Source: Diploptera punctata
Lineage: Eukaryota > Arthropoda > Insecta > Blattodea > Blaberidae
Direction of reading: 5' to 3'
NCBI GenBank assembly: GCA_030220185.1
Contig: JASPKZ010004568.1
Span: forward strand, 993,501 to 1,057,500
DNA: 64,000 nt
In this document: positions 12,700-63,022 of the stretch, one piece after another
How positions within the stretch are numbered: the first letter of the stretch is position 1
How the letters are laid out: the number at the start of each line of letters is the position of its first letter
The notes under the pieces: generated by a model
What the model saw: only the letters and a program-made list of their open reading frames with translations
What the model was told of the DNA's origin: nothing
Databases searched by the model: none
Program-made: the position numbers and the translations under genes

Positions 12700-13345
12700 G
12701 ATATGGCAATCTAAAGGAATTTCTCAAGAGTGCCGGACAGGAACAGTTGTAAATATACATAAAAAAAAAGGTTCCATAAGTAAGTGATTAAATTAGAGAG
12801 ATGTACACTAATATGAACTGCAACAAATTATACGGAATTCTATTAAAATAGATGGGATCAATATTCTGAAACATTATTGCATGAAAAACAGTCTGTATTT
12901 CGAACAGACAGGAGAACAGTTGACGCAATATTTATATTAAACCACAATATTGATAAAAGAGTAGAATTTAACCTTCAGACATAGTATTATTTATTCGAAT
13001 AGTCTTTGATAAATGTTACGATAATATAAGCCTCAATAAATTATGGTAAATTTAGAAGAACATGAAATGCCAAAAGCAATAATTGGAGTCAACTATATTA
13101 ATTAAAAAATAAAAAATTGAACTTGAAAAGTATCAGAGTAGATATTAGTTAATACAAGTGTGGGACAAGGCTGTAACCGCTCACCAGTATTATTTAATTT
13201 GTATATTAATAAAATATTAAAGACTTGTAAAATGATATTTCGTCAGGATTATAGATTTTCAAAAATTAAACTATAGATCACGCTTGTATGCAGACGAATT
13301 AGTATCATTTGCAACCTCAGAGGACAAATAATAAGATATCATAAT
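12700..13345 (+). mobile_element. RTE-like LINE RT fragment, frameshifted
   Basis: Alternating frames give GTVVNIHKKGSISK, QSVFRTDRRTVDAIFIL, a VGQGC-type block B near 13160 and LYADELVSFATSED near 13290. That is the order of RT motifs in RTE-like LINEs. The catalytic pair reads ADE instead of ADD. At least five frame changes; dead. Confidence 0.7.
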
Positions 13346-31818: not shown

Positions 31819-31859
31819 GCTCAAATGTTTCTGACAGGCAACAGGAAGATGTATTTTAA

Positions 31860-32530
31860 TATACGGTGTTCGGAAATGTCGATGAAAAAGCTTATATCAC
31901 AGAGAAGAATGAAAGATTGTTATTGCAGTGAAGAAAACTGTAATCTAAGTTCTTCTGAAATTGGAGCACTCGCGCATGCAAATTTGACTCTTGTTCATGC
32001 ATAAACAGTGAAGAGAAGTCTTCATCGGCTGGGTACAATGCCCCAGCATCAAAAGAAAACTCTACGTATCTAAGATAATTAAAATGAAAATAATCTCATT
32101 TTCAAATGAATGTTTGGTAAATGATATGGAGTTTAGGAACAAAGTCAACTTCTCAGACGTGAGTAAATATAAAGGATATCATTCTAATGGGCGTGTTTGC
32201 GTGTGTAGCAACCCAAACACTAAAATAGAACAGAAAAAATCTCATTCCTCAGTGAAACATGGGGGTAGAAATATTATGGGGGAGGGTTTATGACGACTTT
32301 GGGAGTGAGTCCACTTGTTTCCATAGAAAAGAAAATATAAAATAATGGATAAACGAAGATATTGTAAAATATTATCCTGCAAAGTGCAGAATAACTTAGC
32401 CTGGCCAGTGATTATTATTAAAATGCAATTACTTAAAACATAGCCAGATATAGTTCCGCAATGTACAGCCTGGAACATACTTCACACTTTATGGCCTCCA
32501 CTTCAACACCGGTTTTTAAATCCAATAGAG
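31860..32530 (+). pseudogene. Tc1-like transposase, N-terminal and central part
   Basis: Decayed frames: LVHA..VKRSLHRLG-like stretch near 32000, NFSDVSKYKGYHSNGRV (for the SDESK first catalytic motif) near 32145, KHGGRNIMG near 32260, and a final LNPIE-like codon set (ttaaatccaatagag) at about 32516-32530. There the mitochondrial insert begins. Confidence 0.8.
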
Positions 32531-32823
32531 AGAGGGGGTTTTGCAGTAGATAATGCTACTTTAAATCGATTCTTTACCTTTCACTTTCTATTACCATTTA
32601 TCATTGTGGCAATAGTAATAATTCACTTACTATTCTTACACCAAACAGGATCAAATAACCCTATAGGCTTATTCCTTCACGAAATTTCATTATATGAAAT
32701 TCAATCTTAGATGCTCTTCACAAAGAATTTAAAACATTAATTGGATACAAAAATATTAGTAAGGGAAGAACATTTATTTTTATTCCAGTTTTTTCAATCA
32801 TTATATTTAACAACTTTCTAGGT
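32531..32823 (+). pseudogene. NUMT: joined cytb and ATP6 fragments
   Basis: 32531-32668 encodes a cytochrome b segment ([17 protein letters not shown], then FLLPFII and [10 protein letters not shown]). From about 32669 to 32823 it encodes an ATP synthase subunit 6 segment (LIPSRNFII, then [16 protein letters not shown] and [17 protein letters not shown]). The ATP6 part needs TGA read as Trp (about 32694), the invertebrate mitochondrial code. The two genes are not adjacent in the usual insect mitochondrial order, so two pieces were joined, with a Leu codon region shared at the seam. The insert interrupts a Tc1 transposase just after its catalytic Glu motif. Confidence 0.93.
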
Positions 32824-33060
32824 CAACTAATGAAACAAGTCCGGAAATGTGACATAACTATAGAGACCAATCTCAAACACATATGTCTGGTGGAATATGA
32901 TAAAACTGGACAAATTATTTTGGAAAACAATATAGTCAATTCTATGCCTACTCGATGGAAATAACTTATTCACAGATACGGGTTGACAATATAACTTTAA
33001 ATACTGCATTTTGTATTTTGAATAGCATTAGAATACTATTTAGGCCAAAATATATAATGA
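32824..33060 (+). pseudogene. Tc1-like transposase, C-terminal part
   Basis: Resumes in frame with [30 protein letters not shown] and NSMPTRWK, the C-terminal segment that follows the NPIEHLW motif in Tc1 transposases. Only about four codons between NPIE and LMKQV are missing, replaced by the NUMT. Confidence 0.85.
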
Positions 33061-62384: not shown

Positions 62385-63022
62385 TAAAAGAACACGCTCT
62401 AGGGCACGCCGTAGCGTAGTGGTTAAGGCACTGAGCTACAAGCCGGAGGGTCGAGGGTTCAAGTCCCGTTGGGGGTCAGAATTTTTAAACTGACCCAAAC
62501 CTTCTGGCGGCACTATGGCCCTGGGGTCGACTCAGCCTCTAACGGAAATGAGTACCAGGCGCTTGTTCTGGGGTAAAGGCGGCCGTCACGCAGGGCTGAC
62601 AACTCGGCTGACATAAAGTGCCGATTGTCTAGATAAAGTGGGAGCCTTAACCTCCTACTACCCCAAGGGCCTCCGGGACTGTTGTGGGATAACTTTTTAG
62701 GAGGCACGCCGTAGCGTAGTGGTTAAGGCACTGAGCTACAAGCCGAAGGGTCGAGGGTTCAAGTCCCGTTGGGGTCAGGATTTTTAAACTGGCCCAAACC
62801 CTCTGGCGGCACTATGGCCCTGGGGTCGACTCAACCTCTAACGGAAATGAGTACCAGACGCTTTTTCTGGGGTAAAGGCGGCCGTCACGCAGGGCTGACA
62901 ACCCGGCTGACATAAAGTGCCGATTGTCTAGAAAAAGTGGGAGCCTTAACCTCCTACTACCCCAAGGGCCTCCGGGTCTGTTGTGGGATCACTTTACTTC
63001 ACTTTACTTAAAAGAACACGCT
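62385..63022. repeat. 14-bp target-site duplication pair
   Basis: taaaagaacacgct at 62385-62398 and 63009-63022, perfect, bracketing the SINE-3 dimer as one unit. Confidence 0.95.
62399..63008 (+). mobile_element. SINE-3 head-to-tail dimer
   Basis: Two ~300-bp units, about 62399-62701 and 62702-63008, >95% identical by eye. Each has a tRNA-like head with A box (GTAGCGTAGTGGTTAAGG) and B box (GGGTTCAAGTCCC), a body with ctctggcggcactatggcc, and an end in tgggatcactttactt. The first unit's tail is shortened to ataactttttag. One TSD encloses both. An old single copy lies at 795-1078. Confidence 0.95.

Follow-up and report, generated by a model that had tools for sequence, protein, structure and literature searches.

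A two-piece mitochondrial insert in a decayed Tc1 transposase of Diploptera punctata and a possible capture hot spot in atp6

The window considered here is the whole stretch of 64,000 nucleotides at G000:C4456:993501-1057500, taken from an assembly of 3.12 Gb in 10165 contigs and lying on a contig of 1.195 Mb. It holds a decayed Tc1-type transposase on the plus strand. The 5' part (31836..32531) carries frameshifts and stops and ends in the codons NPIE, and the 3' part (32825..32964) reads from QLMKQVRK to SMPTRWK and a stop. Between them stands an insert formed by a mitochondrial cytb fragment (32534..32667, plus strand, 134 bp) and a mitochondrial atp6 fragment (32668..32824, plus strand, 157 bp), joined directly and in the same orientation. 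The cytb piece matches Pfam PF00033 (E 5.7e-13) and, in the PDB, 43 distinct sequences, the best of them at E 5.2e-19; its translation in the invertebrate mitochondrial code begins at 32534 and reads through to NNPMGL. The short atp6 piece gave no match in the Pfam search and matches ATP synthase subunit a among PDB sequences (E 0.002). In the same code its translation begins at 32668 and reads through to NNFLG, and the W of its FIMW motif is encoded by TGA at 32695-32697, which requires the tryptophan reading. Thus, two claims of the first-pass annotation, that a cytb segment is joined directly to an ATP6 segment and that the latter needs TGA as Trp, agree with the Pfam, PDB and mitochondrial contig matches and with the reading frame. 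The insert was likewise real where the annotation had placed it, at 32531-32823, its limits needing adjustment: the right edge is 32824, as the bases TC fit atp6 as well as Tc1, and on the left the edge falls somewhere in 32531-32534.

The assembly contains a complete mitochondrial contig of 19,372 bp (C9691; loci L029 and L030), with tRNA genes in what we take to be the standard insect order and a control region of tandem repeats of about 174 bp. The contig ends repeat each other (96.7% over 1663 bp). Since it is longer than one circle and its ends are 96.7% alike, C9691 may itself be partly nuclear or misassembled. One unit of it, reverse-complemented, serves as the reference M. The cytb piece (M 2707-2840) aligns at 94.9% over 138 bp (M 2707-2844) and differs at 7 sites, all synonymous third positions. 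The atp6 piece (M 12994-13150) is 92.4% identical over its 157 bp, with five synonymous and five nonsynonymous codon differences; to the atp6 of another nuclear mitochondrial insert (NUMT L004) it is 95.5% identical, with three of each. For the atp6 protein encoded by L004, the best match in the database comes from Diploptera punctata (96%); the L004 protein differs from that of the mitochondrial contig at 7 of 226 residues. Both pieces thus derive from mtDNA of the same lineage. On M they lie on the same strand, 10.1 kb apart in one direction and 6.6 kb in the other. This spacing and the gene order of L004 (cox2, atp8, atp6, cox3) exclude cytb next to atp6 as the normal arrangement. Alignment to the species' own mitochondrial genome, the check proposed in the first-pass annotation, hence matched both segments as non-contiguous, and the adjacency of cytb and ATP6 that would have overturned its reading was looked for on the mitochondrial contig and not found. 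Reversed mtDNA, compared with the window and the fetched loci as a chance control, gave seven matches, none above 60 bp (best E 2.5e-5).

The host sequence is a relic, in which homology to Tc1 transposases is present and an intact frame is absent. At the protein level the assignment is weak: the joined flanks match Sleeping Beauty (5cr4) at E 0.003, the flank pieces gave no match in the Pfam search, and none of the 18 candidates from a protein search with the relic reached E 0.001. DNA comparison among the fetched mtDNA-bearing loci revealed no Tc1 relative. A genome search with the 704 bp to the left of the insert returned 43 matches with 40 of 59 candidates scored, namely the locus itself and 42 other stretches of 65-76% DNA identity (best E 3.8e-65), and the position of the insert inside a Tc1 transposase is strongly supported by these. 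The matches elsewhere in the genome and the 1.195-Mb length of the contig place the insert in nuclear DNA. Six copies reaching or nearing the site, all paralogues from one assembly, were fetched, and the insert is absent from all six. Judged by eye, they agree on AATCCTATAGAA CATTTATGGGAT CAACTGGAG, that is, NPIE HLWD QLE, and the window reads NPIE, insert, QLMKQV; HLWD (11-12 bp, four codons) was therefore lost. No target duplication is seen against the six empty relatives. The replacement of about four codons without such a duplication is what had been proposed.

Tc1 elements are cut at their terminal repeats and not inside the coding region. Because the copy is broken and only 65-76% similar to its relatives, it was probably already inactive at the time of the insertion, and it looks like an old bystander. 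A tie between the break and the transposon, at which the first-pass annotation had hinted, is unsupported for the same reasons: the cutting of Tc1 takes place at its ends, and this copy is broken.

At the right junction (32823..32824) the atp6 piece and Tc1 share the 2-bp microhomology TC, which occurs in five of the six relatives, the sixth having a gap there. The left junction (32531-32534) has no clear microhomology and an uncertainty of 3 bp. The seam between the pieces (32667..32668) is blunt or formed at an imperfect microhomology, with cytb reading GGATTA, atp6 GACTTA and the window GGCTTA. A perfect 4-bp microhomology CTTA, suggested by overlapping BLAST matches, was rejected because cytb reads GGATTA both in the mitochondrial contig and in four other cytb copies. 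In a simulation, 21% of random joins of mtDNA with mtDNA share at least two bases, so the 2-bp microhomology alone proves nothing. The insert nonetheless shows what is expected of end joining, which is a small deletion or none and junctions that are blunt or have 1-7 bp of microhomology; a seam with no clear microhomology is permitted by end joining and does not prove it.

All 39 other matches listed in the search with the insert were fetched. After removal of two duplicates (L007, L013) and two stretches of near-complete mtDNA (L018, L020), 36 distinct inserts remain, that of the window included. Eight of them consist of several pieces in direct or near-direct joins (L001, L008, L012, L015, L022, L026, L027 and, less clearly, L042). 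The insert of L015 (1614-2713) is a chain in which eight pieces, each 70-169 bp long, follow one another in scrambled order and orientation; the overlaps measure 0-14 bp, and there is a single gap of 69 bp. Three of 14 loci found with one of the control windows described below (mt1 1350-1506) are also multi-piece (L058, L061, L069). Given these two proportions, the two-gene insert belongs to a common local type. Short and sometimes chained mtDNA pieces are frequent enough in this genome for the breakage of mtDNA before it enters the nucleus to be studied.

Junctions could be compared in a separate set of 36 atp6 loci, which includes duplicates and two control loci and was tested for inserts up to 600 bp; an unoccupied site was seen in another fetched stretch for 12 of them (11 distinct). 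Nine of the 12 show junction changes of 1 to about 16 bp. Among them, about one base is changed in L005, L014 and L019, 4 bp are lost in L038, L039 and L044, about 16 bp are lost in L023, and L035 has a 4-bp duplication. Junction losses in L010 are larger, and the alignment of L006/L007 to their unoccupied counterparts is too loose to tell. A density of one NUMT per 50-100 kb, guessed from chance finds in flanks, was not borne out: 50 kb from the middle of ten contigs gave three weak matches (E 1.4e-4 to 4.8e-4), no better than the reversed-mtDNA background. Two other arrangements were noticed by eye. The NUMT of L025 (about 1982-2185) lies between direct repeats of at least 48 bp, and those of L004 and L024 have a nuclear sequence on one side and its inverted copy on the other, as if in the middle of a palindrome.

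The insert is best explained, with a probability of about 0.9, as a complex NUMT in which cytb and atp6 fragments were end-joined at a break within an old copy of Tc1. This is a known kind of insert. A double-strand break, presumably spontaneous, would have arisen in the broken transposon. Two short mtDNA fragments present in the nucleus would then have been ligated to each other and into the break, apparently in one event, most likely by non-homologous or microhomology-mediated end joining and with the loss of 11-12 bp. The capture of mitochondrial fragments during break repair, as the first-pass annotation had it, is supported by the non-contiguity of the pieces and the small deletion, and it also fits the missing target duplication and the one-sided 2-bp microhomology.

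The same-strand arrangement of both pieces would also be expected if a single longer NUMT had been inserted and a later deletion had removed about 10.1 kb or 6.6 kb from its middle, and L066 does present a collinear internal deletion within a NUMT. Deletion alone, however, does not produce the changed order and orientation of L008 and L015, and the pieces of L015 are still 96-100% similar to mtDNA; the later-deletion history is accordingly improbable. The same strand order and the brief, imperfect homology of the two pieces at the seam (one mismatch, then TTA) are likewise compatible with a junction made inside the mitochondrion, as a deletion molecule that was captured whole. As judged from the coordinates, a circle keeping the seam would lack the control region, and none of the 39 other matches listed spans the seam, which makes an origin of this kind more improbable still.

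The least credible of the alternatives is an assembly artefact in which mitochondrial reads were misjoined into a nuclear contig. Such a misjoin might exist elsewhere in the assembly: a 355-kb contig (C6400) carries at about 89,491-105,745 (L031-L033) a near-complete mtDNA in the same order and 99.0-99.7% similar to C9691, and this stretch is either a huge recent NUMT or a misassembly. The insert of the window differs from the mitochondrial contig at 5-8% of sites and is therefore not a read of that mtDNA. Furthermore, other inserts of this type occur on two contigs each (L006/L007 and L012/L013). Capture of two fragments by end joining is thus retained as the most likely explanation of the insert.

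The two halves of the insert are unequally represented in the genome. The atp6 half is matched by 35 of the 39 other matches listed and the cytb half by four. Because the halves differ in length, windows of equal length were used, three of 157 bp cut from NUMT L004 (mt1 coordinates; M = mt1 + 12002), both control windows lying in atp6. For each, candidates come from a loose first look, and the best 40, ranked toward query coverage, were scored. The piece present in the insert (mt1 992-1148) had 1234 first-look candidates, and all of its best 40 reached at least 240 bits. The adjacent window (mt1 1149-1305) had 356 candidates with 7 of the best 40 at this level, and the third (mt1 1350-1506) had 286 candidates with 6 of 40.

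The size of the inserts also differs. The set covering the hot core comprises 34 inserts; it counts two near-complete mtDNA copies and omits the duplicates L007 and L013. Two longer inserts found by the control search, L060 and L063, reach into the hot core and are outside the 34. In 29 of the 34 the matching stretches measure 137-231 bp, and all of these lie within M 12933-13175, a 243-bp stretch of atp6 (L029 3854-4096, minus strand, on C9691). Inserts of 243 bp or less make up 29/34 of the hot-core set and 4/18 of the control set (Fisher p 1.2e-5, Mann-Whitney p 9e-4); the latter consists of ranks 5-18 of the best 40 for mt1 1350-1506 (14 loci) and four long inserts, several of its lengths are lower bounds, and 9 of the 14 are older (84-89% identity), which may bias the sizes. 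The idea that the hot spot is a mere short-fragment effect is weakened, not eliminated, by the equal-length windows and the fetched control inserts. Since more inserts come from this stretch than from the two neighbouring windows compared with it, an atp6 piece is a likely candidate for capture.

Amplification of one repeat together with its flanks was rejected for the fetched loci because the flanks differ and the 29 short inserts have 29 different end-point pairs. Flanks (700 bp, alignments above 245 bp) are common throughout only to L006/L007 and to L012/L013; seven other pairs have common repeats of 272-362 bp (65-89%), whose registers to the insert differ (by eye). Over 126 core positions the copies form several haplotypes, with low support at most forks of the tree. 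L021 and L015 are equal to M or one base off, and L034, L035, L037-L040 and L042 are mutually identical with 12 differences from M in 126. By codon position, the differences from M number 77, 5 and 200 in total for 36 loci related by descent, so the copies vary in a mitochondrial manner. From these sequences the pattern is read as repeated capture from several mtDNA haplotypes. It is also conceivable that small pieces were copied into breaks from nuclear NUMTs or transcripts.

The matches listed for the adjacent window include 25 with an internal left end; this end lies in mt1 1171-1192 (M 13173-13194) in 21 of them and in mt1 1150-1170 in only two, despite a ranking that favours early starts. 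Left-hand inserts thus end about where right-hand inserts begin, as a preferred break zone predicts. A zone of preferred mtDNA breakage near M 13140-13194 is a good guess for what lies behind the hot spot, and it perhaps raised the supply of atp6 pieces. When folded as a single strand, the 243-bp stretch has a z of -2.25 and one control stretch a z of 0.38, which is suggestive only. A 12-bp palindrome, ACTAGTACTAGT, lies at mt1 1166-1177, and 1961 bp contain three of this kind, itself included; it is imperfect in the mitochondrial contig and was not used as proof. A broader proposition is put forward tentatively, as somewhat doubtful: mtDNA of this lineage may break preferentially, chiefly in atp6 at about M 13140-13194, freeing a fragment of about 140-240 bp. 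Capture of this fragment would have happened at least dozens of times (29 verified) and perhaps hundreds of times, over several haplotypes, and the NUMT record would then map the fragmentation. If a position-specific hot spot is true, random and non-random cutting of escaping mtDNA could be told apart from a single assembly. The hot spot is also a reason for caution in using short atp6 markers within the lineage.

Complex NUMTs form a recognised class, described in plants (PMC6215612), and concatenated NUMTs are described in humans (PMC9630118). The insert resembles those treated in the two accounts in the direct joining of non-contiguous pieces through blunt or short-microhomology junctions, and differs in the very small size of its pieces (134 and 157 bp) and in the origin of one of them from an often-captured stretch. 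In primates, numts act as filler of double-strand breaks, with deletions in 41 of 90; of 71, 8 have microhomology on both sides and 33 on one, according to PMC2567098. The small deletion and one-sided microhomology seen here are similar; the two pieces and the insect host are not. As reported for fig wasps (PMC7600805), NUMTs came in bursts, with duplicate and complex NUMTs, and many copies are ascribed there to fragmentation and duplication with neighbouring transposable elements. The Diploptera genome is likewise an insect genome rich in NUMTs near transposable elements, but its short inserts vary in flanks and end points. Across insects, NUMT counts increase with genome size, and Blattodea rank third by mean COI NUMT count among the rows shown of Table 3 (PMC10249859). 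For another cockroach, Episymploce splendens, PMC9162313 gives two single NUMTs, one 557 bp and the other 975 bp long; unlike those described here, they are single-piece, come from the large rRNA region and were found by PCR. Among the matches listed from the open-access literature, titles and abstract openings included none on Diploptera NUMTs or on an atp6 capture hot spot. Taken alone, the insert adds a further case to the complex NUMTs, and the capture hot spot adds the interest.

Two further features of the window were observed. A second NUMT lies at 1849-1915 and corresponds in all 67 of 67 bases to M 1478-1412 on the reverse strand, about 100 bp from tRNA-Thr; given this identity it is probably young. 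At 62403-62995 a tRNA-like, SINE-like unit about 299 bp long is present twice in tandem (95-96%), and by eye the NUMT of L035 lies in a related unit.
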